A stretch of 25,593 bases of DNA from a virus. The stretch is taken from the IMG/VR virus record IMGVR_UViG_3300029787_000291, positions 1 to 25,593 of that record; one strand, written 5' to 3'. This document shows positions 2,550 through 18,363 of this stretch, in pieces; the first letter of the stretch is position 1; every line of letters begins with the position of its first letter. A model generated the notes under the pieces. The model was not told the DNA's origin. It ran no database searches and saw only the letters and a program-made list of their open reading frames with translations. Position numbers and translations under genes: made by a program.

Positions 2550-4106
2550 ATGAATGAAACCATAGTTAAGCATCTAAACTTCGGTGATGATGCTAGAAGC
2601 AAAATATTTGCAGGAATTAATAAACTCACTAATGCTGTTAGCTCTACATTAGGAGCTAGCGGCAAGTGTGTTATAATGGAAGACAATACTGGTAAACCAA
2701 TTATAACAAAAGACGGTGTAACTGTTGCTGACAATATAATATTACTAGACCCAGTAGAAAATATGGGAGCTAGATTACTAAAAGAAGCAGCACAAAGAAC
2801 AGTTAAAGACGCTGGTGACGGTACTACAACAGCAACCATACTTGCTCAAGCAATACTTGAAGAAGCTACCAAGCACGATCAAGTTGATAGTTCAAGAAAT
2901 ATAAAAGAAGGAATTAACTCAGCTGTTGAAAATGTAGTTAAATACTTACAAAAGAAAAGAAAAAAAGTAAGTGGTAATAAAATAGATCAAGTAGCTACAA
3001 TATCAGCTAACAATGATAAAGAGTTAGGAAAAATTATAGGTGAAGCTTTTAAAAAAGTAAATGAAACAGGCGTTGTTATCATGGAAACTCATGATGAGAA
3101 TAAAACTTTTGTTGAAGTTATTAAAGGAGCTCAATATGAAAGAGGATTAACCAACCCTCATTTTGTCACTAACAAAGACAAAGGAACTGTAGAGCTTGAT
3201 AATCCATATGTTTTGCTTGTAGAAAACAAAATAGAAAACATTAGGCAAATTCAAGGAGTTTTAGAGTTTATTATAAAAGGAAATAAAAGTTTATTAATAA
3301 TAGCTGAAATGGAACCAACGGTTACATCAGCATTAGCAATGAATAAGATACAAGGTAATATAAAGGTTAATGTTATTGATCCTCCAGTTTATGGAGTTAA
3401 TAAACAAAAAACTTTACATGACTTATCACTTATAACAGGTGCTACTATTATTAATGAAGATCTAGGAGATGATATGGACATGCTAACAGAAGAGCATTTA
3501 GGTTCTTGTGTTAAGTCAGTTACAGACAATGCTGAAACAATATTACAAGTTCATGAATTAAGTGAAGAGGTAGAAGATTTAATACTTAGTTTAAAAGATA
3601 AACTACAAAAAGAAACTAACCCAAACTTAGTGTTATCACTAGAAAAAAGATTAGCTAGATTAGCTGGCAAGGTTGCAATTGTTAAAGTTGGAGCTAACTC
3701 AGAGGTAGAATTAAAAGAAAAGAGAGATAGAGTTGAAGATGCTATTTGTGCTACTAAAGCCGCAATAAAAGAAGGCATAGTACCTGGAGGTGGTATAGCT
3801 TTATTAAATGCCGCACAGTTTTTAACACCTAAAAATATAGGTGAAGAAGTTTTATACTGTGCTATTAAAAAGCCATTTGAAGTTATATTAAGCAATGCTG
3901 GTATAAACGATTATGAAACCCCAGATACTACAGGTAAAGGTTTAGATGTGGTTACAGGAAAAACGGTGGATATGGTAAAAGCCGGAATAATAGATCCTTT
4001 GCTAGTAACAAAAAGTGCTTTAAAAAACGCGGCTTCTGTAGCAACTACTATATTATCAACTGATTGTGTAATCAACAACTTGAGAGCAAATGAAAGCAGT
4101 AGGTAA
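2550..4106 (+). CDS. groEL: Phage-encoded chaperonin GroEL (Cpn60)
   Basis: At 518 residues this is a complete group I chaperonin subunit, somewhat shorter than the usual 540-550. The family motifs are present: TLGASGK near 33-39, TKDGVTVA at 53-60 (D55, matching E. coli D52), DAGDGTTTAT at 87-96 (D90, matching D87) and RVEDA near 393-398 (D397, matching the catalytic D398). ATP binding and hydrolysis should therefore be intact. The apical domain is divergent: the substrate-contact segment reads RGLTNPHF where E. coli has RGYLSPYF, and a later helix lacks the VVN pattern. The Gly-Gly-Met tail is absent and a short equatorial loop is missing near 455-470. It overlaps groES by 17 nt. It likely folds a phage structural protein, either as its own ring with the neighbouring GroES or in a mixed complex; that role is inference. 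Confidence 0.95.
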   Translation: MNETIVKHLNFGDDARSKIFAGINKLTNAVSSTLGASGKCVIMEDNTGKPIITKDGVTVADNIILLDPVENMGARLLKEAAQRTVKDAGDGTTTATILAQAILEEATKHDQVDSSRNIKEGINSAVENVVKYLQKKRKKVSGNKIDQVATISANNDKELGKIIGEAFKKVNETGVVIMETHDENKTFVEVIKGAQYERGLTNPHFVTNKDKGTVELDNPYVLLVENKIENIRQIQGVLEFIIKGNKSLLIIAEMEPTVTSALAMNKIQGNIKVNVIDPPVYGVNKQKTLHDLSLITGATIINEDLGDDMDMLTEEHLGSCVKSVTDNAETILQVHELSEEVEDLILSLKDKLQKETNPNLVLSLEKRLARLAGKVAIVKVGANSEVELKEKRDRVEDAICATKAAIKEGIVPGGGIALLNAAQFLTPKNIGEEVLYCAIKKPFEVILSNAGINDYETPDTTGKGLDVVTGKTVDMVKAGIIDPLLVTKSALKNAASVATTILSTDCVINNLRANESSR

Positions 4107-4350
4107 ATATATAGTTATAAAAGAATTACAAGAAAAAACCACTAAAACAAAAGGTGGTTTGCTCTTGTCTGATAAACAAAGAGAAGACATAAGGTATCAA
4201 GAAGCTGAGGTATTAAACCCAGGTTCTGACGTAACATTATTAAACAAAGGTGATAAAATCTATTACGATCGACACGCTGGCTTTAATATTGAAATAAATA
4301 AAAAAATGTTCAAAGTAATTAAAGAACAAGATGTAGTAATCATCTTATAA
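4090..4350 (+). CDS. groES: Phage-encoded co-chaperonin GroES (Cpn10) with shortened roof loop
   Basis: An 86-residue co-chaperonin that caps the GroEL ring. The mobile loop is visible at about 14-34 with the GroEL-binding hydrophobic stretch KGGLLL at 21-26 (GGIVL in E. coli). The barrel strands follow as AEVL (39-42), NKGDKIYYD (52-60) and a final QDVVIIL. Between the AEVLNPG strand and NKGD there are only about six residues, where E. coli GroES has about fifteen, so most of the roof beta-hairpin is missing. The same loss is known for T4 gp31, where it enlarges the folding cage for the capsid protein. The start lies inside the groEL end in another frame, implying translational coupling. The order groEL-groES is the reverse of the usual bacterial operon. 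Confidence 0.9.
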   Translation: MKAVGKYIVIKELQEKTTKTKGGLLLSDKQREDIRYQEAEVLNPGSDVTLLNKGDKIYYDRHAGFNIEINKKMFKVIKEQDVVIIL

Positions 4351-6015: not shown

Positions 6016-6158
6016 TGGAAGATATAAAGCTTTATTTACTAAATGCAGGAGCTTTTGGTATAACAATGATGGATTGGCTAGAGCCTGCATTAAAAATAAT
6101 GTTGCTTATTGTAACTATTGGTTACACTGCTCATAAATGGTGGAAACTTAAAAAATGA
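6015..6158 (+). CDS. Small single-span membrane protein, candidate holin
   Basis: GTG at 6015 shares its G with the preceding TAG and starts a 47-residue frame whose TGA overlaps the amidase ATG (ATGA, 6155-6158). The product has one hydrophobic helix at about residues 24-38 (ALKIMLLIVTIGYTA), followed by a basic aromatic end HKWWKLKK. A tiny membrane protein directly coupled to an endolysin is the classical holin-endolysin arrangement. An internal ATG at 6066 would give a shorter form and a possible dual start. A second, better-supported holin candidate lies at 7768-8220, so this could instead be an antiholin or pinholin. Confidence 0.55.
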   Translation: MEDIKLYLLNAGAFGITMMDWLEPALKIMLLIVTIGYTAHKWWKLKK

Positions 6159-6568
6159 GACAAATAAATAAAATTATCGTACATTGCTCGGCTACTAGAG
6201 AAGGCCAAGATATTCCAGTTGAAACGATTAAAAAATGGCATATCGAAGGTCGAGGGTGGTCAGACATAGGCTATCATTTCTACATTGACATAAATGGTAA
6301 AATACAAAAAGGTAGAGACATAGCTAAAATCGGAGCTCACTGCAAGGGTCAGAATCGTAACTCAATAGGATTATGTTATTGCGGAGGCGTTGAGGCAGAT
6401 GGTAAGACTCCGAAAGACACTAGAACAGACGAGCAAAAAGATGCTCTACTTGCGGTACTTAGAACTCTAAAAGCTATGTATCCGGAAGCAATAATACACT
6501 CACACAACGACTACGCTAATAAAGCATGTCCATCATTTGACGCGACTAGTGAATATGAAAATATCTGA
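6155..6568 (+). CDS. N-acetylmuramoyl-L-alanine amidase (T7 lysozyme type endolysin)
   Basis: A 137-residue amidase that cuts the bond between N-acetylmuramic acid and L-alanine in peptidoglycan. The Amidase_2/PGRP pattern is clear: IIVHCSAT with zinc ligand H10, WSDIGYHFYI with Y40, and SHNDYANKACPSFD with H117, K123 and C125. The H-x5-K-x-C spacing matches T7 lysozyme (H122, K128, C130), so zinc binding and catalysis should be intact. Length is close to T7 lysozyme (about 150). No signal peptide is visible, so it needs a holin to reach the wall. It overlaps the small membrane gene upstream by four bases and the next gene by 14. Whether it also inhibits an RNA polymerase, as in T7, cannot be judged; no such polymerase is in the window. 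Confidence 0.93.
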   Translation: MRQINKIIVHCSATREGQDIPVETIKKWHIEGRGWSDIGYHFYIDINGKIQKGRDIAKIGAHCKGQNRNSIGLCYCGGVEADGKTPKDTRTDEQKDALLAVLRTLKAMYPEAIIHSHNDYANKACPSFDATSEYENI

Positions 6569-7625: not shown

Positions 7626-7781
7626 ATGGAATCAAATCAATCAAAGGGTTTAGGAGACTCAATAGAAAAGTTTACAACTGCAACAGGTATAAAAAAACTA
7701 GCTGATAAAATACCAGGCGGTTGTGGATGTAAAGCTAGAAAGGAAAAGTTAAATAGTATGTTTCCTTATGGAAAAAAATAA
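7626..7781 (+). CDS. Small Cys-motif protein (GCGCKARKEKLN..FPY), 51 aa
   Basis: A 51-residue protein starting at ATG 7626. A helix-rich front (SIEKFTTATGIKKLADKI) leads to GGCGCKARKEKLNSMFPYGKK at the end. The CGC plus basic helix plus FPY ending recalls a conserved tail seen in small proteins of Bacteroidota phages, where its function is, to my knowledge, unassigned. The CxC pair could bind metal or form a redox or intersubunit disulfide. It overlaps the next gene's start by 14 bases, consistent with coupled expression with the holin candidate. Confidence 0.6.
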   Translation: MESNQSKGLGDSIEKFTTATGIKKLADKIPGGCGCKARKEKLNSMFPYGKK

Positions 7782-8220
7782 AAAAAAATTTAAAGAAACT
7801 AAAGTTGGAGCTTTTTTAAAAGAAAGAGCTCCTAAACTAGTTTCTCAAATAGGAGAGTTCTTACCGGATCAAGGTGCACTAGGTATTGTAAAAAATATGA
7901 TAACAAGTGATACTATTATAGAACCTAAGGATAAAGAAACAGCGTTAAAGCTGTTAGAACAAGATATAGCTGAAATGAACAACGTTTCACAGAGATGGAT
8001 AAGTGATATGACTTCTGATTCTTGGTTAAGCAAAAACACTCGACCTTTAGCATTAATATACTTAACTTTATGTATGAGTATATTTATAATATTAGATTCT
8101 ACAGTGATACTAGAAATAAACCAAGGTTGGATTTCACTATTAGAAGCTTTATTAATAACAGTTTACGTAGCGTATTTCGGTAGTAGAGGCGCTGAAAAAA
8201 TACAAAAAATTAGAAAATAA
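7768..8220 (+). CDS. Holin candidate, GTA_holin_3TM-like
   Basis: A 150-residue protein with a polar N-terminal half and two clear membrane spans at about 92-111 (RPLALIYLTLCMSIFIILDS) and 121-139 (WISLLEALLITVYVAYFG), followed by the basic tail SRGAEKIQKIRK. The segment SQRWISDMTSDSWLSKNTRP before the first span and YFGSRGAEKI after the second match my recollection of the 3TM holin family of gene transfer agents and phages (PF11351). Such proteins make inner-membrane lesions that let the endolysin reach the wall. It lies 1.2 kb after the amidase in the same cluster and probably provides the main lysis trigger. Confidence 0.7.
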   Translation: MEKNKKKFKETKVGAFLKERAPKLVSQIGEFLPDQGALGIVKNMITSDTIIEPKDKETALKLLEQDIAEMNNVSQRWISDMTSDSWLSKNTRPLALIYLTLCMSIFIILDSTVILEINQGWISLLEALLITVYVAYFGSRGAEKIQKIRK

Positions 8221-10094: not shown

Positions 10095-10328
10095 ATGTCA
10101 AATGTAATAAGAAAAATAAGTATTGGTTCTGATTACAAAAATGACGCCATGCATTATTCCTTAGGGCAAGAAGTATATGGAGGTCATATTATTTGTGATA
10201 TTTTATCTGACGAAATAAAAGGTGAATACTCTGTTTTTATAAAAAAAGAAAATGAAGTTTTACCTTGGAAAAAGTTTAATGCTAATATGGCTATAGCTGT
10301 AGAATATAATTTACAGTATAGTGAATAG
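10095..10328 (+). CDS. Small conserved-looking phage protein, 77 aa
   Basis: A 77-residue all-beta-looking protein: SNVIRKISIGSDYKNDAMHYSLGQ, then GGHIICDI, YSVFIKKE and WKKF, ending AIAVEYNLQYSE. The start NVIRKxxIGxDYKNDAMHY rings of small proteins found before the terminase in aquatic phages (recalled, unverified). It begins one base after the preceding stop and ends overlapping the next gene's GTG by eight bases. I cannot name a role; a small capsid- or terminase-associated protein is a reasonable guess from position. Confidence 0.6.
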   Translation: MSNVIRKISIGSDYKNDAMHYSLGQEVYGGHIICDILSDEIKGEYSVFIKKENEVLPWKKFNANMAIAVEYNLQYSE

Positions 10329-10920
10329 TATTTATGACTATATAGTAAGACCAATAGGTGAAAGATATAATAATAAAATTAAAGTTGGTAACAAAGATCT
10401 TGTATTAAATACTAAAATAGAAAACTTTAAAGTTATTAATAAAAAAGCAGAAGTTATTGCAGTTCCTAAAGCTTATGATTTACCAATAAAAACAGGTGAC
10501 GTAGTTTACATACATCACAATGTTTTTAGAAAGTTTTATAATATGAAAGGTAAACAGCAAAATAGTAGAGCTTATTTTAACGATAATTTATATTTTTGTT
10601 CACCAGATCAAATATATATGTATGAGAGAAATGGTTTTAAAAAATCTTTTTTAGATAGATGTTTTGTAAAACCGCTTAAGCACAAAACTTTAGGTAAAAA
10701 AACAATACCAAACCTAGGTGTTTTAAAATATGGAAATAAAGTATTAGAAACGTTAAAGGTTTATGAAAATGATATAGTTAGTTTTCCTAATTTAAGAGAA
10801 TGGCAATTTGTTATAGATAATGAGCTATTATATTGTATGAAATCAAAAGATATATTATTAAAGCATGGACGTCAAGGAAACGAAGAAGAATATAATCCAA
10901 GCTGGGCAACTAGCAGTTAA
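10321..10920 (+). CDS. Putative tandem GroES-like barrel protein, 199 aa
   Basis: The 199-residue product starts at GTG 10321, overlapping the previous gene by eight bases. Two stretches echo the GroES order. First, AEVIAVP (43-49), IKTGDVVYIHHNVFR (56-70) and DNLYFCSPDQIYMY (88-101) match the GroES series EVVAVG, VKVGDRVLYSKYAG and EEYLILRESDVLAV. Second, CFVKPLKHK, then GVLKYG, LKVYENDIVSF, and WQFVIDNELLYCMKSKDILLK repeat the same order. I infer two GroES-like barrels in tandem, somewhat like chloroplast Cpn20. The mobile loop motif GGIVL is not obvious. Direct binding to the phage GroEL is therefore uncertain; it may instead be a structural use of the fold near terminase. The last 56 bases overlap the next gene. 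Confidence 0.45.
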   Translation: MNSIYDYIVRPIGERYNNKIKVGNKDLVLNTKIENFKVINKKAEVIAVPKAYDLPIKTGDVVYIHHNVFRKFYNMKGKQQNSRAYFNDNLYFCSPDQIYMYERNGFKKSFLDRCFVKPLKHKTLGKKTIPNLGVLKYGNKVLETLKVYENDIVSFPNLREWQFVIDNELLYCMKSKDILLKHGRQGNEEEYNPSWATSS

Positions 10921-11140
10921 AGAATTAATCAAAGTAGCAAAAGAACCAATAGTAGACACAGGAGAAGATGTTACAGCTGATAGATTAAAAAATGCAGCAG
11001 CTACAAAAAAGTTAGCTATATTTGATGCTTTTGAAATACTAACAAAGATACAAGAAGAGGAAGATAAAATAACAGGAAAACCTAAAGAAGAAAAAAAAGA
11101 AATAAGTTTTAAAGGTTTTGCAGAAGGGCGTAGCAAATGA
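10865..11140 (+). CDS. Putative terminase small subunit or terminase-associated protein
   Basis: A helical 91-residue protein directly before the large terminase, with which it overlaps by four bases (ATGA at 11137). Features: TGEDVTADRLKNAAATKKLAIFDAFEILTKIQEE (33-66, mostly one or two helices), then a basic flexible tail ending FKGFAEGRSK. The short acidic/basic helical design and the location before terL suit a small terminase subunit, which recognises packaging DNA, but no clear helix-turn-helix is visible, so this is a positional inference. Its start lies 56 bases inside the previous gene; no other in-frame ATG exists, so either the overlap is real or a non-ATG start is used. Confidence 0.5.
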   Translation: MDVKETKKNIIQAGQLAVKELIKVAKEPIVDTGEDVTADRLKNAAATKKLAIFDAFEILTKIQEEEDKITGKPKEEKKEISFKGFAEGRSK

Positions 11141-13359
11141 GTTATCAGCAAACACTTTGGAAAGAAGTTAAAGATCTTATAAATCCTAAAATTTTAGCTA
11201 AAAATAATAGGTATAAAAAATGGGATTATGGTTATAACGCAGATTATGATTTTATAGTAATTAGTAAAACTGGTCAAATTGGACAAATCATTGAAATACA
11301 AAATCTCAGGATTGCTTTACCAGCAGCAAATGAATCGTATAAACGAAGCGAAAAAAAAGAGGAACAATACTGGGAAAAATTTGAATACCCGAAAGAATTA
11401 GCTAGAATAAAAACAAGGTTTGACTGGGAAGAATATCCTATAGATTTTAAGGAAAAATGGTATGAATATATCGATGAAGAATTTAAGCGTAGAGAAGAAG
11501 GTTTTTATTTCTACAATTGTGGCAGTCCTGTATATATTACTGGTACTCATTACATGTATTTGCAATGGTCAAAAATTGACGTTGGTGCGGCCGATTATAG
11601 AGAAGCAAACAGACTCTTCTTTATATTTTGGGAGGCATGCAAAGCAGATAATAGATGCTATGGAATGTGCTATCTTAAAAACAGACGGTCTGGATTTTCT
11701 TTTATGTCGTCCGCAGAACTCGTCAATCAAGCCACCATATCTTCAGATGCCAGATTCGGTATCCTTTCTAAGTCTGGAGCGGACGCTAAGAAAATGTTCA
11801 CAGATAAAGTTGTACCAATATCCGTTAACTATCCGTTTTTCTTTAAACCGATCCAAGACGGTATGGATCGTCCTAAGACCGAGCTCGCTTATAGAGTCCC
11901 AGCTTCAAAGCTTACTAGACGTAAACTAGATGACAACGTTAAGCTAAAAGAACTACAAGGTTTAGATACAACTATTGATTGGAAAAATACAGGTGATAAC
12001 TCTTATGACGGTGAAAAACTAAAACTATTAGCTCACGATGAAAGCGGTAAGTGGGAAAGACCTGATAATATATTAAACAACTGGAGAGTTACAAAAACTA
12101 CATTGAGACTAGGACGTAGAATAGTAGGTAAATGTATGATGGGCTCAACTTCTAATTCATTAGATAAAGGTGGAAACAACTTTAAAAAATTATACTATAA
12201 TTCAGATGTTACAAAACGAAATAGAAATGGACAAACAGCTTCTGGACTCTATAGCTTGTTCATACCTATGGAGTGGAACTACGAAGGATTCATGGATACT
12301 TTCGGATTACCTGTTTTCATTACAACAAAAAATAAAAAAGTCGGAATTGATGGTTTACCAATTAAAATCGGAGTCATTGAACATTGGGAAAACGAAGTCG
12401 ATGGATTAAAAGAAGATCAAGATAGTTTAAATGAATATTATAGACAGTTTCCAAGAACAGAAAAACACGCTTTTAGAGATGAAGCTAAAAAAAGTTTATT
12501 TAATTTAACTAAGATTTATGAGCAAATAGATTTTAATGAAGAATTAAATAATACTGTACAAGTTACTCAAGGATCTTTTATGTGGGCAAACGGAGTCAAA
12601 GACACTAGTGTTGTTTTTGTTCCTTCCAACAATGGTAGATTTAATATTAGTTGGACACCACCTGTAGATATACAAAATAACGTTATTATAAAAAATGGAA
12701 TTAAATACCCTGGCAACGAACACATTGGAGCTTTTGGTTGTGATTCTTACGATATTAGTGGCACTGTTGACGGTCGCGGTTCTAAAGGAGCATTACATGG
12801 ATTAACTAAATTTTCATTAGAAGACGCTCCTCCTAATCACTTTTTTTTAGAATATGTAGCTAGACCTCAAACTGCTGAAATATTTTTTGAAGATGTTTTA
12901 ATGTCTTTAATATTTTATGGTATGCCCATACTAGCTGAAAATAATAAACCTAGATTATTATATTATTTAAAAAGAAGAGGCTATAGACAGTTTAGTATTA
13001 ATAGACCAGATAAAATTTGGAATAAACTTTCTACAGCAGAAAAAGAAGTTGGCGGTATACCTAATTCAAGTGAGAACATTAAACAAGTGCATGCTGCTGC
13101 AATTGAAGCCTATATAGAAGATCACGTAGGAAATTTAGAAGATGGCATGGGTGATATGTATCATCAAGCCACATTAGAAGATTGGGCAAATTTTGATATA
13201 AACAATAGAACAAAGCACGATGCTTCGATTAGCTCAGGATTAGCTATTATGGCTTGCAACAAAAATAAATATAAACCCGTGTCTGAAAGACAGGTTAAAA
13301 AAATGGATTTAGGATTTAAAAAATACGACAATAATGGAGTATATTCAAAAATAATATAA
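11137..13359 (+). CDS. terL: Terminase large subunit (packaging ATPase and nuclease)
   Basis: At 740 residues it is the DNA-packaging motor. The ATPase half carries a variant Walker A, KNRRSGFSFMSS (181-192), Walker B LLAHDE (297-302, D301 and E302) and a coupling motif GSTSN (336-340). The nuclease half has the RNase H-like acidic residues: D536/D539 in FGCDSYD, E581/E585 in EIFFEDV and D695 in KHDASIS. The segment ILAENNKPRLLYYLKRRGY near 598-616 is typical of this family. RRSGFS in place of GKS-type P-loops, and this length, fit Bacteroidota and crAss-like phage terminases as I recall them. It acts at the portal to cut and pump DNA into the prohead. The portal gene begins three bases after its stop. 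Confidence 0.95.
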   Translation: MSYQQTLWKEVKDLINPKILAKNNRYKKWDYGYNADYDFIVISKTGQIGQIIEIQNLRIALPAANESYKRSEKKEEQYWEKFEYPKELARIKTRFDWEEYPIDFKEKWYEYIDEEFKRREEGFYFYNCGSPVYITGTHYMYLQWSKIDVGAADYREANRLFFIFWEACKADNRCYGMCYLKNRRSGFSFMSSAELVNQATISSDARFGILSKSGADAKKMFTDKVVPISVNYPFFFKPIQDGMDRPKTELAYRVPASKLTRRKLDDNVKLKELQGLDTTIDWKNTGDNSYDGEKLKLLAHDESGKWERPDNILNNWRVTKTTLRLGRRIVGKCMMGSTSNSLDKGGNNFKKLYYNSDVTKRNRNGQTASGLYSLFIPMEWNYEGFMDTFGLPVFITTKNKKVGIDGLPIKIGVIEHWENEVDGLKEDQDSLNEYYRQFPRTEKHAFRDEAKKSLFNLTKIYEQIDFNEELNNTVQVTQGSFMWANGVKDTSVVFVPSNNGRFNISWTPPVDIQNNVIIKNGIKYPGNEHIGAFGCDSYDISGTVDGRGSKGALHGLTKFSLEDAPPNHFFLEYVARPQTAEIFFEDVLMSLIFYGMPILAENNKPRLLYYLKRRGYRQFSINRPDKIWNKLSTAEKEVGGIPNSSENIKQVHAAAIEAYIEDHVGNLEDGMGDMYHQATLEDWANFDINNRTKHDASISSGLAIMACNKNKYKPVSERQVKKMDLGFKKYDNNGVYSKII

Positions 13360-13362
13360 TAT

Positions 13363-15756
13363 ATGATTTATACTAATTCACAAAGTTCCTTTCCGGATCA
13401 AGTAGTTCCTCAAGAAGAGAAAATGTCGTTGGACTATGGACTTCAAGTCGGTAGAGCAATAGAAGGAGAGTGGTGGGCCGCAGGAGTAGGCGGAGCAAGA
13501 TATTCTAATAATTACAATATATATCATAGAAGAAGATTATACGCTAGAGGGGAACAGTCAATACAAAAATATAAAGACGAACTTTCAGTTAACGGTGATT
13601 TATCTTATCTTAATTTAGACTGGACACCAGTAGCTGTAGTTCCAAAGTTCGTAGATATTGTAGTTAACGGTATGTCAGAAAAAATATATGACATAAAAGC
13701 ATTTGCGCAAGATCCAGCTTCTCAAAAGAAAAGAACTAATTACGCAGAAAAACTTCATAAAAATATTGTAACTAGAGATTTTATAGAATCAGTAAAGTCT
13801 CAAATGGGTATGGATATATCAGAGGTTAAGAATATGCAAAACCCTCCTGAAAACGAAGAAGAATTAGAAATTCATATGCAACTAGATTATAAACAATCAG
13901 TTGAAATTGCAGAAGAAGAAGTAATAAATAATACGTTAGAAAGAAATAAATATGAACTAACGAAAAGAAGAATTTATAAAGATTTAGTAGAACTAGGAAT
14001 TGGTTGTGTTAAAACAGCTTGGAATAAATCTGAAGGGGTTGTTGTGGATTATGTTGATCCAGCTAATATAGTTTACTCATATACAGATGATCCTAACTTT
14101 GAAGATGTTTATTATGTAGGTGAAGTAAAAAACATTTCATTACCAGAGCTTAAAAAAGAATTTCCAAACTTAACAGACGCTGAGTTGGAGATGATACAAA
14201 AAATGCCAGGCAATACTAACTATAGAAGAAACTATAGAGGAAATAGAGATAGTGATACTATTCAAGTACTATATTTTGAATATAAAACTTATGCTGATCA
14301 AGTTTTTAAAGTTAAAAAAACAGCTAACGGGTTAGATAAAGCATTAGAAAAGCCAGATACTTTTAATCCACCACCTAACGATGGGTTTGAAAGAGTTAGT
14401 AGATCTATTGAGGTTTTATATCATGGAGCAAAAATATTGGGCCATCCAATTATGCTAGACTGGAAAGTTGCTGAAAATATGACAAGACCAAAGTCTAATT
14501 TATGTAAAGTTAACATGAATTATAGTATATGTGCTCCATCTTTGTATAAAGGTCGTATAACTTCTTTAGTAGAAAGGATGATTACTTTTGCAGACATGAT
14601 ACAATTAACATCGTTAAAACTACAACAAGTATTATCTCGTATGGTACCAGATGGTGTTTATTTAGATGTTGATGGTTTAGCAGAAGTTGACTTAGGTAAT
14701 GGAACAAACTATAATCCAAGAGAAGCCTTAAATATGTACTTTCAAACAGGTTCTATTGTAGGTCGATCAATGACACAAGATGGCGATATAAACCCAGGTA
14801 AAGTTCCTATACAAGAATTAAACAGTTCTAACGGTATGGCTAAAATACAAAGCCTTATATCTACATATCAATATTATTTACAAATGATAAGAGATGTAAC
14901 CGGTTTAAATGAAGCTAGAGATGGTAGTAATCCAGATAAAGATGCTTTACTAGGATTACAAAAATTAGCTGTAGCTCAATCAAATGTTGCAACTAGAAAT
15001 GTGCTTGACGCTGGTTTATATTTAACCTTAAGAACCTGTGAAAATATAGCTTTAAGAATAGCTGATTCACTAGAGTTTGCTTTAACAAACGAAGCTTTAG
15101 TTGATAGTATTAGCTTATATAATGTAGCAACATTAGAAGAAATAAAAGAATTACATTTATATGACTTTGGTATATTCTTAGAATTAGAACCTGATGAGGA
15201 AGATAAGCAAATTTTAGAACAAAATATAGATATAGCCTTAAAAAATAATCAAATAAACTTAGAAGATGCTATAGATATAAGAAATATACATAATTTACGT
15301 TTAGCTAATCAATTATTAAAATTAAAAAGAAAACAAAAATCTAAAGAAGACCAACAAAAGCAACAACAAATGATTCAAGCACAAGCTAAAGCTAATGCTG
15401 AGTCAGCTGAAAAAGCTGCTATGTATGAAGTTCAGAAAAAAGAAGCTTTTGCTCAGACCGAATTACAAGTAGAAAAAGGTAAGTCTGATTTTAGAATACA
15501 ACAAATGCAAGTTGATTTACAGTTAAAAATGCAATTAGCACAGCAAAAGTTTGCTTTTGATAAAGAGTTAGCTCAAATAGATTTACAAAAAGATGTAAAT
15601 AAAGAACAAATGATTGAAAATCGTAAAGATCAAAGATCCAAACTTGAAGCAACGCAGCAAAGTAAACTAATAGAACAAAGAGAATATAATCTTACCCCTA
15701 CTGATTTTAGTGATCAACCGAGTGGTCCAACACTAAGTGAACAGGTAGGTATTTAA
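13363..15756 (+). CDS. Portal protein
   Basis: A 797-residue protein directly after terL, the expected place for the dodecameric portal ring through which DNA is packaged. N-terminal half: wing and clip regions with DWTPVAVVPKFVDIVVNGM near 88-106. Middle: stem-like helices around RITSLVERMITFADMIQLT and a crown-side DVTGLNEARDGSNPDKDALL. From about 660 to 765 there is a long Lys/Gln-rich coiled coil (KEDQQKQQQMIQAQAKANAE and following), like the helical barrel that extends into the head in P22-type portals. A length near 800 and the long barrel are consistent with crAss-like portals. It is followed by the scaffold gene after a 10-bp tandem duplication. Confidence 0.88.
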   Translation: MIYTNSQSSFPDQVVPQEEKMSLDYGLQVGRAIEGEWWAAGVGGARYSNNYNIYHRRRLYARGEQSIQKYKDELSVNGDLSYLNLDWTPVAVVPKFVDIVVNGMSEKIYDIKAFAQDPASQKKRTNYAEKLHKNIVTRDFIESVKSQMGMDISEVKNMQNPPENEEELEIHMQLDYKQSVEIAEEEVINNTLERNKYELTKRRIYKDLVELGIGCVKTAWNKSEGVVVDYVDPANIVYSYTDDPNFEDVYYVGEVKNISLPELKKEFPNLTDAELEMIQKMPGNTNYRRNYRGNRDSDTIQVLYFEYKTYADQVFKVKKTANGLDKALEKPDTFNPPPNDGFERVSRSIEVLYHGAKILGHPIMLDWKVAENMTRPKSNLCKVNMNYSICAPSLYKGRITSLVERMITFADMIQLTSLKLQQVLSRMVPDGVYLDVDGLAEVDLGNGTNYNPREALNMYFQTGSIVGRSMTQDGDINPGKVPIQELNSSNGMAKIQSLISTYQYYLQMIRDVTGLNEARDGSNPDKDALLGLQKLAVAQSNVATRNVLDAGLYLTLRTCENIALRIADSLEFALTNEALVDSISLYNVATLEEIKELHLYDFGIFLELEPDEEDKQILEQNIDIALKNNQINLEDAIDIRNIHNLRLANQLLKLKRKQKSKEDQQKQQQMIQAQAKANAESAEKAAMYEVQKKEAFAQTELQVEKGKSDFRIQQMQVDLQLKMQLAQQKFAFDKELAQIDLQKDVNKEQMIENRKDQRSKLEATQQSKLIEQREYNLTPTDFSDQPSGPTLSEQVGI

Positions 15757-16920: not shown

Positions 16921-18363
16921 ATGGGACAATTTGCAAGCACAGGCCCAGGATTAATTCCTACTCAAGATCAAAGTATTCTGTCGACTAACTATCTACAGTG
17001 GACTGATCCTAACGGAGCTAATTTTGCGGACTTTGCACAACAATACTTACCTGAGCTATATGAGCAGGAAGTAGAAAGATTTGGTAACAGAACGTTATCA
17101 GGTTTTTTAAGAATGGTAGGCGCTGAAATGCCTATGACATCTGACCAAGTTATTTGGTCTGAACAAAATAGATTACACATTGGTTATGATGACGTGTCTG
17201 TAGGTGGTGCTAATAACACTACTTTTACAGTTGTTATTCCACCAGGAAACGAAGTAGTAGTTAGAGTTAATCAAACATTTGTTGTTTATGATCCAGCTCA
17301 ACAAATTACTTTAAAAGGTTTAGTAACTACAGCTCCTAACCCAGGTGCTCCAGGTACTTTAACTTTTGAGGGTGCTTGTTACACTGCTAATGATTTTGGA
17401 TCTCTTAATCCTAATGGACTAAAACTATTTGTTTATGGTTCTGATTTTGCGAAAGGAACACTAGGAATGGACGGATCTGTTACTCCATCTTTTACTCAAT
17501 TTCATAATAAGCCAATTATTATTAAAGACAAGTACGAAGTTAATGGTTCAGACACTGCTCAAATTGGTTGGGTTGAAGTTGCTACTGAAGACGGAACATC
17601 TGGATTCTTATGGTACATGAAAGCTGAGTCTGAAACTAGATTAAGATACGAAGATTATCTTGAAATGGCTATGGTTGAAGGTGAACTTGCCACAGCTGGT
17701 AACTTTGCTGCCGCTGCAGGACCTACTGCTGGTAGTGGAACACAAGGTATGTTCTCTGCTATTGAAAATAGAGGAAATGTTTATCAAGGATTCGCTGGAG
17801 CTGCAAACCCTGGTGCTGGTGCATTAGGAGACTTTGACGAGATTCTACAAGAATTAGATTTACAAGGTGCTATTGAAGAAAACATGTTATTCTTAGACAG
17901 AGCTACTGCTCTTGATTTTGATGATATGATTGCTGCTCAAGCTGGTGGTGGATATAACAACACAAGCGCTGCTTCTTACGGTCTTTTTGATAACGAAGCT
18001 GAAATGGCATTAAACTTTGGTTTTTCTGGTTTTAGAAGAGGTTCTTATGACTTTTATAAAACAGACTGGAAATACTTAAACGATGCTTCTACCAGAGGAA
18101 TGGTTGACAACATTAAAGGTGTGTTAATCCCTGCTGGAACATCTACAGTATATGATCAAATGTTAGGATCTAACATCAGACGTCCTTTCTTACATGTAAG
18201 ATATAGAGCTTCTGAAACAGACGATAGAAGAATGAAATCATGGATTACTGGTTCAGTTGGTGGAGCTTATACTTCATCTCTTGATGCTATGGAAGTTCAT
18301 TATCTTTCTGAAAGATGTCTATGTGTACAAGCTGCTAACAATTTCGTATTATTTGTAGCGTAA
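16921..18363 (+). CDS. Major capsid protein
   Basis: A 480-residue protein right after the scaffold. The N-terminal part (ANFADFAQQYLPELYEQEVE and RTLSGFLRMVGAEMP) forms long helices like an HK97-type N-arm and spine. A beta-rich insertion follows at about 90-200 (VVVRVNQTFVVYD, LFVYGSDF). The central section RLRYEDYLEMAMVEGELATA then leads into an axial-domain-like C-terminal region with RGMVDNIKGVLIPAGTSTVY and RRPFLHVRYRASETDDRR. Pro and Cys are few, and the codon usage appears less A-biased than neighbours (many GCT/GGT/GAA), fitting a highly expressed product. It is a plausible client of the phage chaperonin. The HK97 fold is inferred from gene order and helix/strand pattern, not from a clear motif. 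Confidence 0.85.
   Translation: MGQFASTGPGLIPTQDQSILSTNYLQWTDPNGANFADFAQQYLPELYEQEVERFGNRTLSGFLRMVGAEMPMTSDQVIWSEQNRLHIGYDDVSVGGANNTTFTVVIPPGNEVVVRVNQTFVVYDPAQQITLKGLVTTAPNPGAPGTLTFEGACYTANDFGSLNPNGLKLFVYGSDFAKGTLGMDGSVTPSFTQFHNKPIIIKDKYEVNGSDTAQIGWVEVATEDGTSGFLWYMKAESETRLRYEDYLEMAMVEGELATAGNFAAAAGPTAGSGTQGMFSAIENRGNVYQGFAGAANPGAGALGDFDEILQELDLQGAIEENMLFLDRATALDFDDMIAAQAGGGYNNTSAASYGLFDNEAEMALNFGFSGFRRGSYDFYKTDWKYLNDASTRGMVDNIKGVLIPAGTSTVYDQMLGSNIRRPFLHVRYRASETDDRRMKSWITGSVGGAYTSSLDAMEVHYLSERCLCVQAANNFVLFVA

Follow-up and report, generated by a model that had tools for sequence, protein, structure and literature searches.

A predicted tandem co-chaperonin beside terL accompanies a reversed groEL-groES pair in a marine Bacteroidota phage

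In phage T4, gp31 directs the folding chamber toward gp23. Like CocO of phage RB49, gp31 is a phage co-chaperonin that acts on GroEL (PMC9598537); both differ from the protein described below in being single-domain and in working without a phage GroEL. Phage homologues of GroEL are also on record: OBP and AR9 have single-ring forms (PMC9598537), and the chaperonin of phage EL is only 22% identical to GroEL (PMC7185714). The EL, OBP and AR9 chaperonins are, however, reported to be functional without a co-chaperonin. Another design is found in chloroplasts, where Cpn20 and Cpn23 (chains R and Q of 7ekq) consist of two GroES domains arranged head to tail, about 200 amino acids in all, and occur alongside a group I chaperonin and a co-chaperonin of one domain. 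For chloroplasts it is a matter of debate how a tandem lid, with its even number of domains, can cap a ring of seven-fold symmetry, and why it does so. Cpn20 has been called chloroplast-specific, and in Chlamydomonas Cpn20 and Cpn23 form seven-domain lids together with the single-domain co-chaperonin (PMC5780408).

We analysed a 25,593-base viral fragment from IMG/VR, referred to here as the window. Its ORFs confirm an earlier note on this DNA, which had placed groEL (2550-4106, 518 aa) and groES (4090-4350, 86 aa) on one strand (+), with groES second and starting 17 nt before the end of groEL (4090-4106). This overlap of the groEL stop with the groES start suggests that translation of the two may be coupled. 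The GroEL product, a member of the group I chaperonins within a deep viral clade, matches the Cpn60 domain over its full length and well above the Pfam threshold (PF00118, 194.9 bits versus 34.3, E 2.9e-57); it also matches PHROG 5725 'chaperonin groEL' (E 1.2e-134) and passes NCBIfam NF009487 (471 bits, cut-off 352). Because it stays below the threshold of the NCBIfam GroEL equivalog TIGR02348 (456.9 bits versus 582.1), we class it from its sequence as a divergent GroEL and not a standard bacterial one. The ATP motifs are kept, as the earlier note had it: T30, K51, D52, D87, T89-91, D398 and G415 (E. coli numbering) are all present, and the binding and hydrolysis residues (D52, D87, D398, GDGTTT, GGG) do not vary among the 27 family members. 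The C terminus, NNLRANESSR, has no GGM-rich tail; cellular rows have longer, mostly G/M-rich ends. Ring assembly and ATP-driven folding by this protein are predictions from its sequence. The groES product is a single-domain co-chaperonin that passes PF00166 (44.6 bits versus 21.1), and its mobile loop (TKGGLLLSDKQRED) contains GGLLL, the triad being hydrophobic in 95-100% of 38 sequences. A Lys-rich mini-ORF of 27 aa just before groEL (2442-2525, MAYGKKKSMTKKVKSKPKKTKNKSKKK) was found at one of 89 loci and hence rejected as part of the module. Further upstream, positions 336-2078 encode a repetitive 580-aa protein that is weakly head-fiber-like (PF11133 below the cut-off, PHROG 14753).

The pair had been thought uncommon, which proved mistaken: one GroEL scan returned 97 relatives (80 retained, identity up to 79%), and 265 GenBank phage records contain a GroEL match. 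With the first ATG taken as the start of groES, the two genes overlap by 17 nt at 88 of 96 loci of environmental relatives, by 4 nt at seven and by 1 nt at one. The order is indeed the reverse of the bacterial one, since, of 43 cellular rows, 40 have groES before groEL and none has it after, the other three having no groES scored nearby. The isolated phages Elemovirus (Flavobacterium; 1-nt overlap) and Maribacter phage Panino (one small gene between) and the uncultured ctfjg026 likewise have groEL followed by groES on one strand; they differ from the window in the overlap or gap, and their GroELs are 35-42% identical to that of the window. In phages immuto and DAC19 groES or a groES-like ORF comes first, and their GroELs fall near or inside the cellular group. 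This contrast in order fits what Marine et al. 2017 (ISME J 11:2479) are said to have stated, namely that the GroELs of virioplankton are divergent from those of bacteria and that the order of the subunit genes follows GroEL phylogeny; that study reportedly mentions no tandem co-chaperonin. The reversed order is on this account prior knowledge, and the groEL-groES pair itself is an already known type among phages. Both PMC7185714 and PMC5934643 cite Marine et al. 2017 on viral chaperonins.

The source is a marine Bacteroidota phage of the podovirus type. The closest terL relatives of the window are phages of Flavobacterium, Cellulophaga, Maribacter and Tenacibaculum, which supports the earlier reading of a complete, phage-owned pair of a Bacteroidota podovirus. 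For GroEL we ran the phylogeny that had been proposed as a check. The tree had 80 rows, among them 25 GroELs of Bacteroidota and 12 of Pseudomonadota. The window and its environmental relatives come out as one group in it, with an SH-aLRT of 100 and a stem 1.1 changes per site long; this group, Panino, Elemovirus and ctfjg026 lie outside the cells, which group separately with a few phage GroELs. The deep order of the tree is unsure, its branches being long, yet the window sequence falls outside any host clade, so that the placement which the earlier note had named as refuting was not found for GroEL. Could a phage nonetheless have picked up an ordinary groESL from its host, or could the contig be misassembled? 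In favour of this are the completeness of the pair and its location in a phage of Bacteroidota. However, the window GroEL is only 37-41% identical to Bacteroidota GroELs and sits in a well-supported viral group outside the sampled cells, the two genes stand in reverse order and there is no GGM tail; these sequence comparisons tell against a recent host capture. Misassembly is ruled out by the identical groEL-groES junction in dozens of independent contigs, and we give this whole explanation next to no chance. All three genes of the putative module, including the ES2 gene introduced below, are under purifying selection (median dN/dS of 0.077 for groEL, 0.122 for groES and 0.103 for ES2; 0.091 for terL). 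One relative, L086, has a groES (L086:3020-3280) at a dS of 0.20 from that of the window (4090-4350), with a dS of 1.23 for groEL, a contrast in the sequences pointing to recombination at groES.

The earlier note was right that the pair is complete but overlooked a third co-chaperonin gene, which we call ES2 (10321-10920, plus strand, GTG start). Its product of 199 aa belongs to a family of about 200 aa, twice the length of GroES; it matches PHROG 13932, co-chaperonin GroES (E 8e-22), and equivalent genes in isolated phages are annotated cpn10 or GroES. An AlphaFold2 model built with 55 related sequences (pLDDT 86.8, pTM 0.80) has GroES-like domains at residues ~1-106 and ~107-184, and its confidence is lowest around residues 11-40, the expected site of a GroES mobile loop. 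Foldseek against the PDB put Cpn20 (E 6.5e-5, TM 0.54) and Cpn23 (E 6.3e-4, TM 0.50) of 7ekq at the top, both over the full length; GroES ranked after them and gp31 was among the fold matches. In a viral library the model matched the cpn10 of phi18:3 over its full length (TM 0.72). When the N-terminal half was folded alone its 18 best matches were GroES, gp31 and Cpn20, all with an E of 0.01 or worse.

Profile comparison of the C-terminal half with cellular GroES gave 97%, none of 30 decoys doing equally well. The N-terminal half is the weaker one: compared with phage GroES it gave 43% (0 of 30 decoys), and the 5% that hhalign gave it against cellular GroES is uninformative. A Pfam search reported no match for the window protein or for the N-terminal halves; the relatives in phi19:3 and phi38:1 pass PF00166 in their C-terminal half. 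A search of the ES2 profile against PDB sequences gave nothing significant; the tandem build came to light only through profile comparison and fold search. The modelling thus gives good support to ES2 as two GroES-fold domains head to tail, with the N-terminal half as the weaker link. Like Cpn20 and Cpn23, ES2 is accompanied by a group I chaperonin as well as by a single-domain co-chaperonin, but it is phage-encoded, only ~15% identical to them and reduced in one of its mobile loops. We do not regard it as plastid-derived, and claim no common descent: it would work like Cpn20 at most. Among 198 Bacteroidota genomes ES2 was found in one, a MAG that also contains phage GroEL contigs. The tandem lid is already in databases as GroES or cpn10, with its two-domain build pointed out in no paper that we found, and the literature searched, which covered few subscription journals, held no phage Cpn20 or tandem GroES. 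The novelty would lie not in the reversed pair, a known arrangement, but in a putative phage double-domain lid, of which the other descriptions come only from the chloroplasts of plants and algae.

ES2 lies directly upstream of terL, with one small ORF between them, at all 155 loci. In the window this ORF (10865-11140, plus strand, 91 aa) occupies the position of a small terminase gene, has no family match, and shares 56 nt with the end of ES2 and 4 nt with the start of terL. The large terminase gene terL (11137-13359, PHROG 6681) is followed on the same strand by the portal gene (13363-15756, PHROG 6547) and by a gene for a head/packaging, virion structural protein (16921-18363, PHROG 13704), probably the major capsid protein. 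Terminase and capsid genes had been placed within 7 kb of the pair; this is true of terL, 6.8 kb past groES, and not of the head gene, which is 12.6 kb off. In the 56-nt overlap (10865-10920) the DNA is read in two frames, one for the last part of ES2 and one for the first part of the following ORF; here lies the conserved ES2 tail GNEEEYNPSWA, and some relatives extend ES2 by ~30 residues into the region. Between groES and ES2 there is a lysis pair, an amidase gene (6155-6568, PHROG 822) and a holin gene (7768-8220, PHROG 3427).

All 20 long contigs that bear GroEL also contain ES2. Conversely, GroEL is present in 18 of 23 ES2-bearing contigs, starting 4.2-10.4 kb upstream of ES2, and the other five contigs end 1.8-8.6 kb upstream of ES2. 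Elemovirus, Panino and ctfjg026 also have a second GroES-like gene beside terL, as well as homologous terL and portal genes. The Pervagoviridae (phi38:1, Calle) and Pachyviridae (phi19:3, phi46:3) likewise combine a single groES with a tandem cpn10 of ~195-200 aa before terL, cpn10 being a listed core gene of the Pervagoviridae (PMC8776804). They differ from the window in the C-domain loops of ES2, which are longer, in phi38:1 by a groES that precedes groEL and is separated from it by one gene, and in the phi19:3-type Pachyviridae by records without GroEL. The chaperonin gene fixed to terL is thus ES2, whereas the groEL-groES pair shifts strand and neighbourhood between genera: in Elemovirus it lies on the strand opposite terL, and in phi38:1 both genes are near replication genes. 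This makes the structural-protein client that the earlier note deduced from the location of the pair a weak proposal. In the Tenacibaculum phage Gundel_1 (L172, L239), one of the terL relatives, a profile search found no GroEL, single GroES or ES2, so the entire module can be absent.

The two domains of ES2 differ in their predicted GroEL-binding loops. The N-domain has its triad (LVL) at residues 27-29, and 98-100% of 55 sequences are hydrophobic there; the C-domain loop of the window family is shortened and has no hydrophobic triad. Elemovirus, ctfjg026 and Panino lack this triad too, and phi38:1 has a disrupted one (LRV); all of these, like the window family, bear GroEL. The triad is intact in two GroEL-less lineages, phi19:3 (LIYI) and L329 (IIV), which thus retain both of their loops. 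L329 is a record of 72.8 kb with two co-chaperonins and no GroEL; because it ends in a 32-nt terminal repeat, the genome is probably complete, and in the terL tree it is sister to phi38:1 (99/99). In these sequences, loss or disruption of the C-domain triad tracks the presence of a phage GroEL, but with two GroEL-less lineages against five this is a pattern and not a result.

The window GroEL is itself changed at apical and inter-ring positions. Apical substrate- and GroES-binding residues are replaced (Y199 by L, Y203 by H, L234 by Q, V263 by A, V264 by M), and the bacterial inter-ring contacts are lost: A109, R452, E461 and V464 are Q, E, N and E, and the E434 segment is deleted. The 43 cellular GroELs all have A109 and carry R/K452, E/D461 and V/I464. 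The four positions changed in an engineered single-ring GroEL (R452, E461, S463 and V464; PMC5575113) read ENYE in the window where the 43 cellular GroELs have RESV or nearly so, in an alignment that crosses a deletion near 461-464. The sequence is thus consistent with a phage GroEL that is possibly single-ring.

How might the three proteins work together? We propose, with a probability of roughly 60%, that they form a three-gene phage chaperonin module, in which the GroEL ring is capped by mixed lids of single GroES and tandem ES2. The phage GroEL would bind unfolded phage proteins and ATP, and seven GroES-type domains drawn from single and tandem lids would then cap it, by analogy with the Chlamydomonas lids; three tandem proteins and one single, for instance, would supply seven domains with four live loops. 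ES2, if made late from the packaging operon, would steer the chamber to virion proteins, much as gp31 does for gp23 in T4. The lid composition and stoichiometry, the number of rings, the timing of expression and the client are conjectures of this model. Its weak points are the N-terminal half of ES2, unrecognised by Pfam, and TM-scores near 0.5, which are moderate. Nor need ES2 depend on a phage GroEL, because the GroEL-less phi19:3 group and L329 keep both co-chaperonins.

These GroEL-less genomes, complete or in the case of L329 probably so, bring in a different explanation: ES2 would serve above all the host GroEL, as a gp31-like lid, and the groEL-groES pair would be a separate, interchangeable cassette with other clients. 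The mobility of the cassette, set against the constant ES2-terL linkage, agrees with this, as does its apparent recombination in L086. Yet every sufficiently long contig of the window family has both ES2 and GroEL, and the state of the C-domain loop follows the phage GroEL; we consider the explanation possible, if on the doubtful side. The invariant linkage to terL, together with the loss of the C-domain triad, could also mean that ES2 is a structural or packaging protein with a borrowed GroES fold, a partner of the terminase or portal. That would leave unexplained an N-domain triad kept in nearly all 55 members, and in phi38:1, phi19:3 and phi46:3 it is other proteins that are labelled structural by similarity, ES2 being annotated as cpn10 or GroES. 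Such a role seems to us quite improbable.

A further possibility is a sharper form of the mixed-lid proposal and not its opposite: the phage GroEL would be a single seven-membered ring, and a tandem lid with one dead loop in every two would let the lid release. A single-ring GroEL holds GroES too tightly, and a half-dead tandem lid would lower the affinity. The engineered single ring, which traps GroES, became functional with GroES concatemers in which two or three of the seven loops were mutated (PMC5575113). The ENYE residues of the window fit this idea, along with the changes at A109 and E434, and so does the triad, lost or disrupted in phages with GroEL and kept in those without, even between the terL-tree sisters phi38:1 and L329. 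On the other hand, lost bacterial contacts are no proof, since other contacts may substitute; within the family K is found at 452 in 8 of 27 members and E/D at 461 in 12 of 27, and the alignment at 461-464 spans the deletion. Moreover, the phage EL chaperonin forms a double ring which comes apart with ATP (PMC7185714), and the pattern in the loops has just two GroEL-less lineages to set against five. We hold it only tentatively. The fullest version, a natural single-ring chaperonin whose hetero-lid of tandem and single proteins has about three of seven loops dead and in which the Cpn20 design arose independently, is to our mind unlikely; if true, it would be the product of evolution that corresponds to the engineered single ring and its loop-mutated GroES concatemers.

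A small conserved module of groEL, single lid and tandem lid, with relatives that have no ring gene, would offer a clean system for the tandem-lid question. Should the ring prove single, it would show a natural answer to the problem of lid release, which engineers overcame through mutations in some of the loops.

Short contigs with phage GroEL also turn up in bacterial MAGs. Several are binned in Flavobacteriaceae MAGs (L166, L167, L186-L189), and others (L164, L165, L219-L222) in a MAG named Aliivibrio. Aliivibrio was rejected as a host, as this MAG, with its several short phage-GroEL contigs, is probably mis-binned. Since such contigs are binned into bacterial MAGs, a GroEL marker annotated in a MAG can be phage-derived.
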